From Brumimicrobium aurantiacum (GTDB taxonomy: Bacteria > Bacteroidota > Bacteroidia > Flavobacteriales_D > Crocinitomicaceae): DNA of 64,000 bases. The notes under the pieces are model-generated. The model made no database searches, was not told the origin of the DNA, and worked only from the letters and a program-made list of their open reading frames with translations. The position numbers and the translations under genes were made by a program. The stretch lies in assembly GCF_003402975.1 (NCBI RefSeq), contig NZ_QURB01000001.1, positions 248,001 through 312,000 on the forward strand. Reading direction: 5' to 3'. Every line of letters starts with the position of its first letter. The first letter of the stretch is position 1. Of this stretch, positions 5,022 through 9,894 are shown piece after piece.

Positions 5022-5210
5022 TACAGTATATTGATTAGTATTTTTCGAAATCAATAATGGTCTTCATTCTTTTTAGAAAAATTGTCATTGATCATCATAT
5101 CCCTCCGTTCAATTCGAACTCCTGTACTTTAACAATTTGTAGCAAAATCAATTATAATTTTCTTGATTTTTTGTTGTGCATGCTTAATATTTTTTGTAGT
5201 TTTAACAACC

Positions 5211-5660
5211 ATGAAAAATACAAAAGCAGAAGACTACGTAGATTTTCATCTACGACACGCGTGGCATAAGGTATCACGCATGTACAACCAAAAAGCCAAA
5301 GCCCACGGATTAACGATGTCAATAGGATTTATTTTATTGATTGTTGACAAAGACGGAACACCTAGTACTCAACTTGGACCAAGAATGGGTATGGAACCTA
5401 CTAGCCTATCGAGAACCCTTAAAACGATGGAAACAAGGGGATACATTTACAGAGAAGTAGATAGAGATGACAAAAGAAAAGTACTTATTTTCTTAACAGA
5501 ACAAGGTGTTGCGTTGCGAAAAGAAGTAAAAGCAAATGTTATTCAATTCAATGAAAAACTTTTGAATTCTATCCCAACTAATAAATTACAAGCGTTTTTT
5601 GAGGTTATGGAAACCATAGATGAGCACGTTGAAGATGAGCTAAAAGCATTAATTATATAA
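5211..5660 (+). CDS. MarR-family transcriptional regulator of the beta-oxidation unit
   Basis: The protein has 149 residues from the ATG at 5211. An in-frame start at 5163 would add a hydrophobic stretch untypical of the family. A winged-helix domain covers roughly residues 45-115: the recognition region is GMEPTSLSRTLKTMETRGYI and the wing DRDDKRKVLIFLTEQG has the Asp and Arg typical of MarR proteins. These regulators bind DNA as dimers and often release it on binding a small ligand. The gene ends 16 bases before the hydroxyacyl-CoA dehydrogenase gene, so it probably senses acyl-CoA or fatty acid and controls this operon; the ligand is inference. Confidence 0.9.
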   Translation: MKNTKAEDYVDFHLRHAWHKVSRMYNQKAKAHGLTMSIGFILLIVDKDGTPSTQLGPRMGMEPTSLSRTLKTMETRGYIYREVDRDDKRKVLIFLTEQGVALRKEVKANVIQFNEKLLNSIPTNKLQAFFEVMETIDEHVEDELKALII

Positions 5661-5676
5661 TTTAAATCGCAATTAA

Positions 5677-8082
5677 ATGAAAAGAAAAATAAATAAAGTC
5701 GCCGTTTTAGGTTCGGGTGTAATGGGATCACAGATCGCTTGTCACTTTGCCAATATTGGTGTCGAAGTACTTCTTTTGGATATTGTTCCAAGAGAATTAG
5801 ATGAAAAAGAAGAAAAGAAAGGATTAAAATTAACTGATAAAGTAGTTCGAAATCGCATTGTTGATACTGCGCTTACCTCTGCTTTAAAGATGAAGCCTTC
5901 TCCAATCTATAAAAAAGAATTTGCTAGTCGAATTACGACAGGAAATATGGAGGATGACATGGCTAAAATCAGTGAAGTTGATTGGATCATTGAGGTTGTA
6001 ATTGAACGATTAGACATTAAAAAAACTGTTTTCGAAAATGTTGAAAAACACAGAAAACCAGGTACATTAATTACATCAAATACTTCAGGTATTCCGATCA
6101 ACATGATGCTTGAAGGACGTTCTGATGATTTCAAACAACATTTCTGTGGAACACACTTTTTTAATCCACCACGTTATTTACAATTGTTAGAAATTATTCC
6201 AACCAAAGAAACAAAACCTGAAATCGTTGATTTCTTTATGGAATATGGTAGTAAATTCTTAGGTAAGAAAACAGTGCTTGCTAAAGATACACCAGCTTTT
6301 ATCGCCAATAGAATTGGAGTTTATTCAATCATGTCGCTTTTCCACAGTGTGAAAGACCTTGGCTTAACAGTTGAAGAAATTGACAAATTAACGGGAACTG
6401 TTCTTGGAAGACAAAAATCTGCCACATTTAGAACTGCTGATGTTGTTGGTCTAGATACACTTGTATTGGTTGCCAACGGTGTTAAGGATAATTGTCCAGA
6501 TGATGAAGAAAACAAAGTATTTGAATTGCCAGACTTCATCAGTAAGATGGTTGACAATAAATGGCTTGGTTCTAAAACAGGACAAGGTTTTTATAAGAAA
6601 ACGAAGGATGAAAATGGTAAGAAAACAATTCTTTCATTGGATTTAGATACAATGGAATACACACCTCAAAAGCGTGTAAAATTCCCAACCTTAGATATGG
6701 CTAAGCCAGTTGATGATTTGGCAAAAAGAACTGCATTGTTGGTTCAAGGACAAGATAAAGCGGCTGAATTTTTCAAAACAATCTTTGGAGACTTATTCGC
6801 CTACTCTACTAATCGTGTTCCCGAAATTGCAGAAGATTTATACAAAATCGATGATGCCATTAAAGCTGGATTTGGTTGGTCATTAGGCCCATTCGAAACT
6901 TGGGATATTCTAGGATTTGAGAAAGGATTAGAATTGATTGAAAAGCAAGGAAAAAAAGCCGCTCAATGGGTTCACGACATGAAAGAAAGTGGAGCAACGA
7001 AGTTTTATAAAAAAGAAAATGGTCAAAAGCTTTACTTCGATCTTGCCAGCAAATCTTACAAAGTTATTCCAGGAACAGAAGACTTAGTAATGTTAGAAGC
7101 TTTACGTGATGACAATACAGTTTGGAAAAACACAGACACAACCATTGTTGACCTTGGAGATGGAATCTTAAACATTGAATTCCACACCAAAATGAACACA
7201 ATCGGAAGTGGTGTTATCGAAGGAATCAATAAGGCAATCGATTTAGCAGAAACGAAATACAAAGGATTGGTTATTTCAAATGATGGACAGAACTTCAGTG
7301 CTGGTGCCAACGTTGGAATGATCTTTATGATGGCTGCTGAACAAGACTTCGATGAATTGAATTTTGCAGTAAAAGCATTCCAAGATACAATGATGCGTGT
7401 ACGTTATTCTAAATCACCAGTAATTGTTGCGCCACACAACCTTACACTTGGAGGTGGATGTGAGTTATCAATGCATGCTGACAAAGTGGTTGCCCACGCA
7501 GAAACATACATTGGATTGGTTGAGTTTGGTGTTGGATTGATCCCTGGTGGTGGTGGTTCTAAGGAATTCGCTAAGCGTTTTTCAGATGAACTAAAATCTG
7601 GTGACATCAGAATTAACACATTACGTGAAAGATTCCTTACAATCGGACAAGCTAAAGTAGCTACTTCAGCACACGAAGCATTTGACTTAGGTTATTTACG
7701 CAAAGGAACTGATGAAGTAATTGTGAGTAAAGAACGTCAGTTGACACGTGCCAAAGCAGCCTGTTTAGAAATCTCAAACAAAGGCTATACTGCTCCACCA
7801 AAGGAGAAAAACATTACAATTTCAGGTCAAGAGGGATTAGGAATTGTATATGTTGGAGCACACTCAATGATGTCAGGAAACTATATGTCAGAGCATGATA
7901 GAGTGATTTCTGAGAAATTAGGTTATGTTCTTTGTGGAGGTGATATTTCAGAACGTGTACAGGTTTCAGAACAATATTTACTGGACCTGGAAAGAAAAGC
8001 ATTCTTAGAATTATGTGCAGAACGTAAGACTTTGGAACGTTTAGAAAGCATGGTGAAGAAAGGAAAAGTGTTGAGAAATTAG
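5677..8082 (+). CDS. fadN: 3-hydroxyacyl-CoA dehydrogenase / enoyl-CoA hydratase fusion (FadN type)
   Basis: The 801-residue bifunctional enzyme carries out the hydratase and NAD-dependent dehydrogenase steps of fatty acid beta-oxidation. The order is dehydrogenase first: a Rossmann dinucleotide site GSGVMGSQ at about 12-19, HAD C-terminal domains to about 470, then a crotonase domain with oxyanion-hole segments NFSAGANVG and LGGGCELS. This is the order of Bacillus FadN, the reverse of E. coli FadB. It sits between a MarR gene and a thiolase gene. Its TAG stop lies inside the first degenerate unit of a 15-bp repeat array, but the C-terminus (KGKVLRN) looks like a normal family end. Confidence 0.93.
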   Translation: MKRKINKVAVLGSGVMGSQIACHFANIGVEVLLLDIVPRELDEKEEKKGLKLTDKVVRNRIVDTALTSALKMKPSPIYKKEFASRITTGNMEDDMAKISEVDWIIEVVIERLDIKKTVFENVEKHRKPGTLITSNTSGIPINMMLEGRSDDFKQHFCGTHFFNPPRYLQLLEIIPTKETKPEIVDFFMEYGSKFLGKKTVLAKDTPAFIANRIGVYSIMSLFHSVKDLGLTVEEIDKLTGTVLGRQKSATFRTADVVGLDTLVLVANGVKDNCPDDEENKVFELPDFISKMVDNKWLGSKTGQGFYKKTKDENGKKTILSLDLDTMEYTPQKRVKFPTLDMAKPVDDLAKRTALLVQGQDKAAEFFKTIFGDLFAYSTNRVPEIAEDLYKIDDAIKAGFGWSLGPFETWDILGFEKGLELIEKQGKKAAQWVHDMKESGATKFYKKENGQKLYFDLASKSYKVIPGTEDLVMLEALRDDNTVWKNTDTTIVDLGDGILNIEFHTKMNTIGSGVIEGINKAIDLAETKYKGLVISNDGQNFSAGANVGMIFMMAAEQDFDELNFAVKAFQDTMMRVRYSKSPVIVAPHNLTLGGGCELSMHADKVVAHAETYIGLVEFGVGLIPGGGGSKEFAKRFSDELKSGDIRINTLRERFLTIGQAKVATSAHEAFDLGYLRKGTDEVIVSKERQLTRAKAACLEISNKGYTAPPKEKNITISGQEGLGIVYVGAHSMMSGNYMSEHDRVISEKLGYVLCGGDISERVQVSEQYLLDLERKAFLELCAERKTLERLESMVKKGKVLRN

Positions 8083-8195
8083 ACTTTCAGATGTTAGACA
8101 AGAAGACGTTAGACTAGGAGATGTTAGACTAGGAGATGTTAGACAAGAAGATGTTAGACAAGAAGACGTTAGACTAGGAGATGTTAGACTGAAAG
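8076..8195. repeat. 15-bp tandem array (7 clear units plus one degenerate unit)
   Basis: Seven contiguous 15-bp units run from 8091 to 8195. The types are ATGTTAGACAAGAAG, ACGTTAGACTAGGAG and ATGTTAGACTAGGAG, and the last is ATGTTAGACTGAAAG. The invariant core is GTTAGAC. The preceding 15 bases, 8076-8090, form a degenerate unit (core TTAGAC) that contains the stop codon of the upstream gene. The array is bounded by CTTTCAG at 8084-8090 and its inverse CTGAAAG at 8189-8195. It directly precedes the four-helix-bundle gene. Confidence 0.92.
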
Positions 8196-8242
8196 ATTTT
8201 ATGTTTTGAGAGATAGGATGTAGAAATTAAACAATAAAGAAT

Positions 8243-8605
8243 ATGAGAAATGCACATCATAATTTTAGGGAATTGAACATTTGGAAAAATGGGATGAAGA
8301 TTGTAAAATCAACTTACCAAATTTCTGAGGGACTTCCTAAAGATGAAAGATTTGGTCTTGTTTCTCAAATTCAACGTTGTTCAGTTTCTATTCCTTCTAA
8401 TATTGCTGAAGGCTCTGGTAGAGGAACCGTAAAAGATTTTACTAACTTTTTAAATATGAGTATTTCATCTTCCTATGAATTAGAAACTCAATTAATTCTC
8501 GTAAATGATTTATATAGCTTAGAAATAGAGGAATTAATTAAGGATATTAATGAATTACAAAAAATGATTATTGGATTCAAAAGAAGCTTGTTAACCAAAA
8601 AATAA
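8243..8605 (+). CDS. Four-helix-bundle protein, S23 (23S rRNA intervening-sequence) family
   Basis: The 120-residue protein has the hallmarks of the S23/TIGR02436 family: FRELNIWKNGMKIV near the start, FGLVSQIQRCSVSIPSNIAEG at about 45-65, then GSGRGTVKDFTNFLNMS and SSYELETQL. Members were first found as ORFs inside intervening sequences of Leptospira and Coxiella 23S rRNA genes and are common as isolated genes in Bacteroidota; their biochemical role is unknown. The fold is a bundle that assembles into pentamers. The gene interrupts a beta-oxidation operon and is flanked by a repeat array on the left and a palindrome on the right. It appears intact, with no frameshift. Confidence 0.93.
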   Translation: MRNAHHNFRELNIWKNGMKIVKSTYQISEGLPKDERFGLVSQIQRCSVSIPSNIAEGSGRGTVKDFTNFLNMSISSSYELETQLILVNDLYSLEIEELIKDINELQKMIIGFKRSLLTKK

Positions 8606-8625
8606 AATGAATTAAAAAAAACCAT

Positions 8626-8692
8626 AGATGTTAATTTTGACATTAGATTATGGACATACGTCTAAAATCCAATGTCTAAAAACCTAACATCT
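8626..8692. repeat. Imperfect palindrome made of GTTAGAC-type words, right flank of the S23 gene
   Basis: AGATGTTA at 8626-8633 pairs with TAACATCT at 8685-8692. Inside it, GACATTAGATT pairs with AATCCAATGTC with one mismatch. The right arm carries GTCTAAA words, the inverse orientation of the left array. CTAACATCTT at 8684-8693 is a perfect 10-base complement of AAGATGTTAG at 8148-8157 in that array, so the two flanks could also pair with each other around the S23 gene. Confidence 0.75.
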
Positions 8693-8709
8693 TAAAAACT
8701 CAAAATAAA

Positions 8710-9894
8710 ATGACAAATAAAAACGCATATATAGTTACAGGATATCGTACGGCAGTAGGGAAGTCTGGCCGTGGTGGTTTCCGTTTTTATCGTCCAGATG
8801 ACTTAGCAGCAAATGTAATTAAGCGCATCATGGAAGATGTTCCGAATTTGGACCCAAGTCGCATCGATGATGTAATCGTTGGAAATGCTAATCCAGAAGC
8901 AGAACAAGGTTTAAATATGGGACGTTTAGTTTCATTAATGGGATTAGACACGAATAAGGTTCCAGGAATGACTGTGAACCGTTACTGTTCATCAGGATTA
9001 GAAACAATTGCATTAGCGACTGCGAAAATCAATATGGGGATGGCCGATTGTGTTATCGCTGGAGGTGTCGAATCAATGTCTGCAATTCCAATGGGAGGTT
9101 GGAGAATTGTGCCAAATCCAAAAGTGGGTAAGGAAAATCCAACTTGGTATTGGGGAATGGGGTTAACGGCAGAAGCTGTAGCTCAACAATACGGTATTTC
9201 GCGTGAAGACCAAGATAGATTTGCTTTGCAATCGCATGAACGTGCTTTAAAAGCAATTGCTGAAGGTCGTTTCAAAGATGATATCGTTCCTGTAGAAGTT
9301 GAACACATTTACTTGGATGAAAATGAAAAACGTCAAGTAAAAAACTACACTGTAGATACAGATGAAGGACCAAGAAAAGGTTCTACTTATGAAGCATTGG
9401 CACGATTAAGACCTGTTTTTGATGCAAAAGGTTCAGTTACTGCTGGTAACTCTTCACAAACAAGTGACGGAGCAGCATTTACTTTAGTGATGTCTGAGAA
9501 AATGGTGAAAGAACTCGGATTAGAGCCTGTTGCTCGTTTAGCTTCTTACAATGTTGTTGGAGTTGAGCCACGCATCATGGGTATTGGTCCAGTAGACGCT
9601 ATTCCAGCGGCAATTAATTCCGCAGGATTAAAATTGAACGACATTAGTTTATTCGAATTAAACGAGGCTTTTGCATCTCAATCCTTAGCCGTAATTCGCG
9701 AAGCAGGATTAAATCCAGACATCGTAAATGTAAATGGTGGTGCGATTTCATTAGGTCACCCACTTGGATGTACTGGTGCGAAATTAACAGTTCAAATGAT
9801 GAATGAATTGAAGAAACGTAACGAACGCTATGGTGTTGTAACAATGTGTGTTGGTACAGGACAAGGTGCAGCAGGAGTTATTGAAAGATTGTAA
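8710..9894 (+). CDS. fadA: Acetyl-CoA C-acyltransferase (3-ketoacyl-CoA thiolase)
   Basis: The 394-residue enzyme performs the thiolytic final step of beta-oxidation, releasing acetyl-CoA. The nucleophile is Cys93 in NRYCSSGLE. The C-terminal active-site segments are NEAFASQ, NGGAISLGHPLGCTG and the CVGTGQGAAG loop carrying the second catalytic Cys. Length and motif order are normal for a degradative thiolase. It follows the dehydrogenase/hydratase gene after the S23 insertion and is closed by a strong terminator. No acyl-CoA dehydrogenase follows it, unlike the Bacillus fadNAE operon, so that step must be encoded elsewhere. Confidence 0.94.
   Translation: MTNKNAYIVTGYRTAVGKSGRGGFRFYRPDDLAANVIKRIMEDVPNLDPSRIDDVIVGNANPEAEQGLNMGRLVSLMGLDTNKVPGMTVNRYCSSGLETIALATAKINMGMADCVIAGGVESMSAIPMGGWRIVPNPKVGKENPTWYWGMGLTAEAVAQQYGISREDQDRFALQSHERALKAIAEGRFKDDIVPVEVEHIYLDENEKRQVKNYTVDTDEGPRKGSTYEALARLRPVFDAKGSVTAGNSSQTSDGAAFTLVMSEKMVKELGLEPVARLASYNVVGVEPRIMGIGPVDAIPAAINSAGLKLNDISLFELNEAFASQSLAVIREAGLNPDIVNVNGGAISLGHPLGCTGAKLTVQMMNELKKRNERYGVVTMCVGTGQGAAGVIERL

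Follow-up and report, generated by a model that had tools for sequence, protein, structure and literature searches.

The S23 gene in the fadN/fadA gap

The window, a stretch of 64,000 nucleotides from Brumimicrobium aurantiacum, harbors a gene of the S23 family in the gap between a fadN-type and a fadA-type cistron, outside any 23S rRNA gene (Table 1). The preliminary description of an intact 120-residue S23 gene separating the two cistrons was confirmed, the protein scoring 113.1 bits against PF05635 (cut-off 33.8) and 107.3 bits against TIGR02436. Since dN/dS values against two congeners were 0.22 and 0.16, the gene is not decaying and is under purifying selection.

Table 1. Genes and sequence features around the S23 gene (positions in the window)
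Feature	Position	Strand	Remark
MarR-type regulator ORF	5163..5660	+	ahead of fadN
fadN-type 3-hydroxyacyl-CoA dehydrogenase/enoyl-CoA hydratase, 801 aa	5677..8082	+	upstream host cistron
Left array	8074..8200	+	17 AG-led units, strict 7/8-nt alternation, seven GTTAGAC
S23 / 23S_rRNA_IVP / four helix bundle protein gene, 120 aa	8243..8605	+	PF05635, TIGR02436
Right palindrome	8626..8692	+	3' half, inverse (CT-phase) word; 5' half, AG-phase copy
Ten-base segment	8684..8693	+	exact complement of 8148-8157
fadA-type thiolase, 394 aa	8710..9894	+	downstream host cistron

In the left array, AG first occurs at 8074 and last at 8194. Two units at its start lie within the 3' end of fadN, and an ATTAGAC at 8078 covers the fadN stop codon. 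The eight 15-bp units with a GTTAGAC core that had been described initially were recovered as eight copies at 15-nt spacing, each composed of one 7-nt and one 8-nt unit; seven contain exact GTTAGAC (starts 8093 to 8183), in addition to the ATTAGAC. TRF placed 7.5 copies at 8089-8201 (score 149). The exact pattern GTTAGAC-N8-GTTAGAC occurs six times in the whole genome, every time in this array.

The right palindrome with the inverse word and the perfect ten-base complement was likewise found as described, the complement being exact, yet weak taken alone. None of 200 dinucleotide shuffles reached the score of the whole left/right inverted alignment (z 4.9); for the RNA duplex predicted between left and right (-35.8, shuffles -23.7 ± 3.8), one in 200 did so. 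The palindrome forms a hairpin of its own (8620-8698, z -7.1), CT at 7/8-nt spacing occurs only four times on this side, exactly 7 nt apart twice, and the minimum free energy (MFE) fold contains only five left-right pairs and prefers the right self-hairpin. A related palindrome is kept without S23 in two congeners, in one over the whole gap (L048, z -7.1) and in the other in a less stable form (L051, z -1.6). Because its right palindrome self-pairs and persists without S23 in these congeners, this locus is regarded as a derived example. An Rfam search over 7700-9000 gave two matches with E-values up to 1, far under the gathering scores and neither of them rRNA. A consensus scan of 7900-8900 revealed no intrinsic terminator.

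Inverted heptad arrays at S23 loci

From 182 S23 hits, 160 distinct loci with sufficient flank formed the main set; a replication set was reduced from 118 to 91 non-redundant loci (alignment score ratio under 0.75). Eighty S23 loci and the replication loci were the best-scoring matches and thus not a random sample. Of 257 control genes, 157 were excluded as too near to S23, leaving 100 clean controls. Left and right flanks were complementary beyond dinucleotide shuffles (p<0.05) at 125 of 160 loci (median z 5.3), 97 of them above all 200 shuffles; same-strand likeness reached these levels at 38 and 27 loci. The replication set gave 65/91 for inverted and 15/91 for same-strand flanks, and the clean controls 9/100 for inverted flanks. 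Bracketing of S23 genes by inverted arrays is real and general, and the concern raised beforehand that related S23 genes might lack such flanks was not borne out. The remaining 35/160 and 26/91 loci stayed below this level, among them that of a congener (G003, z 0.1). At the other three S23 genes of the genome, the inverted arrays were no stronger than those on the same strand (z same-strand/inverted 11.6/8.2, 11.9/2.9 and 15.3/0.4 for L002, L003 and L004).

The arms of one locus match base by base and in order. Shuffling the order of heptads was beaten (p<0.05) at 113/160 S23 loci versus 25/257 controls. An arm scored on average 31.1 with its own partner and 18.3 with foreign ones (160 loci); the own partner surpassed all 40 foreign partners at 63 loci and at least 38 of them at 110. 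Across S23 identity classes from 0.5 to 1.0 the own-arm score stayed at 34-38, while the cross-locus score dropped from 35 to 18.5. In 29 disjoint locus pairs, the own-arm score was higher in 19, lower in 8 and equal in 2 (p 8e-4). MFE folds contained a median of 25 left-right pairs in 80 of the 160 loci (every second one), compared to 5.5 in 72 control genes. Chance or base composition as a cause is ruled out by dinucleotide shuffles, permuted partners, the same-strand comparison and control genes.

GxxExxY genes (PF13366) of the same genomes, 24 usable of 31 loci, also have inverted flanks (17/24 at p<0.05; same-strand 11/24). Such flanks are therefore not exclusive to S23, although the GxxExxY words lack a period of 7.

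Among lags of 5-12, period 7 was the best at 117/160 and 60/91 S23 loci, whereas the window array alternates between 7 and 8 nt. Typically, AG recurs at 7-nt intervals upstream of S23 and CT at the same interval downstream, with the remaining bases private to each locus. The preliminary description had suggested testing S23 genes of Flavobacteriales for flanks of GTTAGAC-type repeats; as a fixed S23 site this word is ruled out, since other loci have other words. The AG/CT code amounted to 2.15 bits versus 1.63 ± 0.03 (115 left arms). In 183 loci, five AG at exact 7-nt spacing were found 69 times upstream and 6 times downstream of S23, five CT 67 times downstream and 6 times upstream; elsewhere in these loci, 36 such five-unit chains occurred in 579 kb. 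Clean controls showed faint periodicity (lag 7, z 1.7 and 1.8; lag 14, z 2.0 and 2.7; right lag 6, z 4.0).

The upstream arm was G-rich at 104, C-rich at 7 and equal at 4 of 115 loci (replication: 52, 3 and 1 of 56). At 14 loci with S23 antisense to both neighbors, AG was longer upstream in 10, CT in 2, and both were equal in 2. The pattern thus needs no co-transcription with the host, as the polarity tracks S23 even there. Within the heptad, mismatch rates were 0.075 for A, 0.048 for G and 0.084 for the next base, and highest at the two middle positions (0.24 and 0.31). Chains of 3, 4, 5 and 6 units numbered 31, 29, 49 and 16 on the left and 38, 25, 38 and 10 on the right (n=251); in the replication set, chains of 4, 5 and 6 units numbered 13, 15 and 7 on the left and 9, 11 and 1 on the right. 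The arm precedes the S23 ATG by a median of 23 nt (115 loci). The idea that the arrays act as stop-codon traps for every frame proved weak, with 1.95 frames closed versus 1.68 in shuffles (139 arms).

Placement in operon gaps

S23 genes occur mainly in co-directional intercistronic gaps, e.g. fadN|fadA, sdhA|sdhB, cysD|cysN, mutA|mutB and hemL|hemE. They were co-directional with both neighbors in 136/154 and, in a second count, 91/118 cases. This applied to 76/77 genes at the fad site; outside of it, the proportion (57/74) was not clearly above that of control genes (112/159).

The fadN survey matched 103 of 155 genomes (G016 was left out) and yielded 106 rows, 16 of them without an adjacent fadA in the stretch; one stretch (L125) ends at a contig end. 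In the 90 rows with adjacent fadA, the gap contained S23 in 44 and lacked it in 46, which rules out an insertion that is recent and confined to this genome. Two rows (L018 and L059) represent one locus, so that S23 occupies 43/89 distinct gaps. Three of the 44 filled gaps (L025, L027 and L035) belong to other families of the order. Hairpins were present in 11 of 27 S23-less gaps of 45-300 nt. Close species have arrays that differ from each other in word and in length, and S23 proteins labelled fad do not form one tree group: 26 changes were counted, at least 7 of them forced by well supported branches. The search for empty sites between fadN and fadA in relatives, as suggested beforehand, was successful insofar as S23-less gaps exist; filled and empty gaps were unalignable by eye outside the genes. 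A filled/empty pair of another genus (L308 and L364) showed no clean border indicative of a target-site duplication.

Interpretation of bracketed S23 genes

S23 genes have the appearance of intervening-sequence-type elements set in the gaps of mRNAs: their inverted arrays, heptads included, resemble the situation in Coxiella. According to the available portion of PMC4990558, the 23S rRNA intervening sequence of Coxiella has complementary ends, is cut by RNase III and contains an S23 ORF, directly preceded by tandem GACAGAT heptads with one AG per 7 nt. S23-bearing intervening sequences of 23S rRNA are described there also for Leptospira and Brucella. The host in Coxiella is rRNA, whereas here it is a gap between protein-coding cistrons, and the Coxiella ORF is described as in reductive evolution, in contrast to the purifying selection on the window gene. 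Heptads before the ORF are not known to be a defining trait of such intervening sequences. For CPR rRNA genes, the accessible sections of PMC11270868 report insertions with 23S_rRNA_IVP ORFs at several sites, and common sites for ORF-bearing and ORF-less insertions, the latter stated for LAGLIDADG insertions. Similarly, the fad gap has S23-bearing and S23-less hairpins; unlike these, the CPR insertions have rRNA hosts and mostly encode homing endonucleases.

The best explanation, favored tentatively, is that S23 and its two arrays may constitute one intervening-sequence-type element, located between two operon cistrons in place of the interior of a 23S rRNA gene. Upon transcription of the operon, the arms would pair imperfectly over about 30 bp, and the resulting stem would enclose the S23 cistron and end near the start codon of the following gene. 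Such a stem would be a substrate for a double-strand RNase, the role played by RNase III in rRNA, and its cleavage would set free the S23 message and part the host cistrons from each other. More weakly, the S23 protein might recognize AG heptads, either in the message that encodes it or in the corresponding DNA. We infer the pairing and cutting of RNA at S23 loci; the reading of heptads by the protein is a guess. In the window, the left array has expanded to 17 units and the arm on the right has turned into a self-pairing hairpin; therefore this hairpin and the putative stem around S23 are alternative structures. The initial proposal of an intervening-sequence-like insertion in an mRNA is borne out in part, by the inverted flanks and the rRNA-like heptads, while the self-pairing of the right palindrome in the window and the lack of a G.U excess in arm mismatches spoke against it. 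Other points against the intervening-sequence reading are the polarity kept at antisense loci, the loci without significant inverted flanks, the 7/8-nt alternation of the window array, the co-directional proportion outside the fad site and the strong same-strand arrays at the other three S23 genes of the genome.

This last result bears on a DNA-level origin as well. G.U and A.C mismatches were similarly frequent (100 v 115; replication 55 v 48; pooled 121 v 114), as would be expected if the arms were kept alike at the DNA level. The arrays possibly form, with a lower probability than the intervening-sequence reading, the inverted termini of a small DNA unit that moves or recombines. Its arms would be kept alike by copying (template switching or gene conversion), AG/CT every 7 bp would perhaps be bound by a protein, and RNA pairing would be a by-product. 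The polarity fixed to the gene and kept in antisense copies, the fad gap filled in some species and empty in others, and the scattered positions of fad-labelled proteins in the tree fit this explanation. It has to account for words that differ per locus (own 31.1, foreign 18.3), unlike the terminal inverted repeats of a DNA transposon, which are read by one transposase, for the fact that no transposase was noticed incidentally, for the failure to identify a target duplication in the fad gaps or the one pair elsewhere, and for the co-directionality at the fad site.

A wider reading, rather unlikely as a whole, sees S23 as a ring-shaped reader of a heptad code. About five AG heptads upstream and their downstream mirror image would be its landing track. 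The free bases, which are locus-private, would be copied from one arm to the other, making every genomic copy a self-addressed unit. The rRNA intervening sequence would then be the best-known case of a phylum-wide class in metabolic-operon gaps that sets where messages are cut or joined. A solved S23 relative is a homopentamer (Lin et al., 2006, as cited in the available parts of PMC4990558 and PMC10053308). The accessory protein Avd of diversity-generating retroelements is related to PF05635, as stated in the accessible part of PMC10053308. None of five scanned window proteins is a reverse transcriptase.

Improbable, and more so than this wider reading, is a heptad-reading autoregulator, in which an S23 ring would bind AG heptads before its own start codon. 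The stem would present or hide them, controlling translation of S23 and the next cistron. The TRAP ring binds (G/U)AG repeats. Both systems combine an oligomer in the form of a ring with AG-type words that recur regularly close to a start codon, binding by S23 being putative; unlike TRAP targets, S23 arrays have a spacing of 7, a second inverted array and locus-specific remaining bases. The low mismatch of A and G against the variable middle positions, the position of the arms shortly before the ATG and the number of five units, the commonest among arrays of four or more and equal to the subunit number of the solved pentamer, are in accordance with such a regulator. Left chains of three are numerous and right ones as common as five, five stands out less as the mode in the replication set, the same mode could result from a preferred length of the stem, and binding alone leaves the order-specific complementarity unexplained. 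Neutral microsatellites flanking S23 by chance are very improbable: array length and word do vary between close species, but the replicated inverted orientation, period, polarity and co-variation contradict them.

Seven-nucleotide units are also known from the P6b stem of the Nostoc trnL intron, on both sides of the stem (PMC4476775), and from TAACTGA heptad repeats (PMC4679880); unlike S23 arrays, both use few shared words and not one per locus, as far as the available portions of these articles show. Neither 'S23' nor 'four helix' appears in the text of PMC4679880. Heptad-bracketed S23 genes in mRNA gaps were not found among the titles and abstracts listed by searches of open-access PMC.

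S23 genes, annotated as 'four helix bundle', are widespread: of 118 genomes drawn from the phylum, 87 carry S23 above the family cut-off, with up to 16 copies per genome. The articles consulted describe these genes as of unknown function. S23 gains a cis partner in the AG-heptad array, whose phase and polarity are defined, together with the mirror image of this array on the opposite side, and the old puzzle of ribosomal intervening sequences is now linked to mRNA gaps. If the intervening-sequence reading is true, many operons of the phylum carry an unrecognized processing or regulatory site between subunit genes, as in sdhA|sdhB, cysD|cysN, mutA|mutB and fadN|fadA.

Complementary flanks of S23 genes

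S23 genes (PF05635) were collected from the window's own genome (4), from 59 genomes of relatives including it (37 matched), from the fadN survey and from 80 named records, Bacteroidota almost throughout. The loci represent best-scoring family matches, for the most part from Bacteroidota, with start codons picked by rule. Flanks of 200 nt were compared at 160 distinct loci having sufficient flank (first set). Inverted complementarity between left and right flank reached p<0.05 at 125/160 loci and exceeded all 200 dinucleotide shuffles at 97/160; same-strand comparison yielded 38/160 and 27/160, respectively. As controls, other genes of these loci and of the window had inverted flanks at p<0.05 in 28/257 cases, and in 9/100 once genes near S23 were taken out (clean controls). 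A second set, collected later from 118 genomes of the phylum, comprised 91 non-redundant of 118 S23 genes, with inverted flanks in 65 and same-strand likeness in 15. The preliminary description had suggested testing whether inverse GTTAGAC-type repeats flank related S23 genes more often than random genes; inverted flanks did prove commoner at S23 loci, with words that differ between loci.

Features of the S23 locus in the window
Feature	Position	Strand	Remarks
fadN-type gene		+	before the S23 gene; preceded by a MarR-type ORF
Left array	8074 to 8194		left of S23; 17 AG-led units, 7 and 8 nt in strict alternation
S23 gene	8243-8605	+	120 aa, intact; PF05635, 113.1 bits
Right palindrome	8626-8692		right of S23; 67 nt, bears the inverse word
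Self-folding segment of right palindrome	8620-8698		z -7.1
fadA-type gene		+	after the S23 gene

In the window, left-right complementarity exceeded 200/200 shuffles (z 4.9). Repeat finders report the left array as 15-mers, which resolve into 7/8-nt AG units; the exact tandem GTTAGAC-N8-GTTAGAC was not found beyond this array in the whole genome. Here the left array has grown and the right arm folds into a separate hairpin, which would allow two mutually exclusive structures.

The other three S23 genes of this genome are flanked left and right by strong same-strand arrays (L002, z 11.6; L003, z 11.9; L004, z 15.3), inverted likeness being strong only in L002 (z 8.2). GxxExxY genes (PF13366; 24 usable of 31 loci, L044-L046 and L237-L264) have inverted words at their flanks in 17/24 cases at p<0.05 and same-strand words in 11/24. 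A period of 7 was not found in these 24 loci.

Shuffling the heptad order reduced complementarity at p<0.05 in 113/160 S23 loci and 25/257 controls. The arms therefore match base by base, beyond the sharing of a word family. The match is visible by eye in four related gaps (L280, L307, L271, L273). As S23 proteins diverge between paired loci, own-arm complementarity remains at 34-38, while cross-locus complementarity (left arm of one, right arm of the other) drops from 35 to 18.5. Among 29 disjoint pairs of 0.6-0.92 S23 identity, drawn only from loci with an own score of at least 26, own exceeded cross in 19, fell below it in 8 and tied in 2 (p 8e-4). Arm mismatches are rare in the AG core (0.075, 0.048) and frequent at the two middle heptad positions (0.24, 0.31). 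The S23 gene and both arms thus co-vary as a single unit, the arms drifting yet staying matched. The protein is conserved: dN/dS is 0.06-0.22 in 10/12 pairs, a further pair having 0.49 and a near-identical pair 1.01.

Period, polarity and number of the heptads

Lag 7 was the best of lags 5-12 in 117/160 loci (lag 8 in 21) and in 60/91 of the second set (lag 8 in 18). The lag-7 signal was absent from 49 window control genes (z 0.6, -0.2) and faint at most in the 100 clean controls (z 1.7, 1.8). Left arms reaching z 3 or above, 115 in all, have in common the circular consensus [T/A]-A-G-[A/T]-N-N-T (A 0.71, G 0.82), holding 2.15 bits against 1.63 +/- 0.03 in a column-permuted null. The upstream arm is the G-rich one in 104 of these loci (opposite 7, equal 4) and in 52/56 of the second set (opposite 3, equal 1). 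Even among S23 genes with both neighbours on the opposite strand, polarity goes with S23 in 10/14 cases (opposite 2, equal 2).

Five AG at exact 7-nt spacing occur 69 times upstream and 6 times downstream of S23; five CT occur 67 times downstream, 6 times upstream and 6 times within the gene. Elsewhere in the same 183 loci, 36 five-unit arrays were counted in 579 kb. Four AG on the left were found in 0/100 clean controls, four CT on the right in 1/100. With both sets pooled (n 251), chains of at least four units have their mode at five (left 4:29, 5:49, 6:16; right 4:25, 5:38, 6:10), a peak that stands out in the first set and is less marked in the second; three-unit chains number 31 left and 38 right. 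A preferred stem length may account for the five. The number is of interest because the Xanthomonas S23 protein forms homopentamers, according to PMC4990558 and PMC10053308, both citing Lin et al. (2006).

Genomic sites and history of the fad gap

Recurrent gaps were identified by clustering neighbour proteins. Linked beta-oxidation genes form the main sites, fadN|fadA foremost (one cluster, 77 loci), followed by sdhA|sdhB (7), cysD|cysN and linked genes (7) and mutA|mutB (4). Gaps at hemL|hemE, carA|eno, atpD|atpC and a his operon were found twice each, and 49 gaps once. For sdhA, sdhB, mutB, cysD, cysN, hemL, hemE and atpD, a single example apiece was verified with NCBIfam. The mutA neighbour matched mutA best, below its cut-off; the atpC neighbour had no match at the 1e-60 limit. 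Remaining names were assigned by eye. One locus (L308, one genus) contains four S23 genes inside 9 kb of a single gene run. At one gap of the L308/L325/L298/L364 group, the L325 S23 copy lacks ~150 nt and L364 lacks S23.

S23 is co-directional with both neighbours in 136/154 first-set loci (fad 76/77, other 57/74, half-fad 3/3; 3 more loci lie at contig edges) and in 91/118 of the second set. Control genes reach 112/159, so an excess outside fad is unclear.

Empty fadN|fadA sites, suggested earlier as a check, do exist: S23 was present in 44/90 rows (43/89 distinct) and absent from 46. Within the genus, the own genome and 2/9 congeners are occupied. In a phylogeny of 146 S23 proteins, poorly resolved with 66/143 inner branches open, the fad label (69 rows; both fad genes in the stretch examined) changes 26 times against a shuffled mean of 48.9, at least 7 changes being forced. 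These changes indicate that S23 entered or left the gap more than once. Two congeners (G001, L048; G002, L051) keep the right palindrome without S23 or left array. Hairpins with z <= -3 occur in 11/27 S23-less gaps of 45-300 nt, some with heptad-like and others with wholly different words.

Heptad-like words build the hairpins in the S23-less fadN|fadA gaps of L110, L071, L062 and L079, the L110 gap resembling both arms minus the S23 gene. Other hairpins occupy L069, L082, L090, L097 and L140, as well as L085 and L113, with CCCCCTTT/AAAGGGGG-like or TTCGACT...CGCTCAGC-like words. Another stretch of ~626 nt, without S23 match, fills the gaps of L122 and L124.

RNA or DNA as the level of arm matching

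Selection on an RNA stem predicts G.U mismatches in excess of A.C. No such excess was found in the first set (100 v 115), the second set (55 v 48) or pooled (121 v 114). Either DNA-level copying from arm to arm outpaces the build-up of wobble pairs, or the likeness that counts is that of DNA. An RNA mechanism is accordingly held with less than even confidence. In minimum free energy folds, 80 loci have a median of 25 left-right arm pairs, against 5.5 in 72 control genes.

The Coxiella 23S rRNA intervening sequence comprises an S23 ORF and complementary ends, is cut by RNase III, and has two or three tandem GACAGAT heptamers plus a degenerate one immediately 5' of the ORF (PMC4990558). GACAGAT places AG once per 7 nt upstream of the ORF, as do the arms here; this likeness to the heptamers so described is the strongest external link. 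Unlike that element, the window unit lies in an mRNA gap. It is thus kept out of the rRNA family and described as possibly working like an intervening sequence, with a putative stem and putative excision. By analogy, the arms would pair within the transcript and cutting would follow as in rRNA. More tentatively, S23 may bind the AG heptads; solved relatives found by sequence are 2gsc and 2rld. In 38 loci the right array has its final CT a median of 7 nt ahead of the fadA start, so the putative arm stem would affect access to the next cistron.
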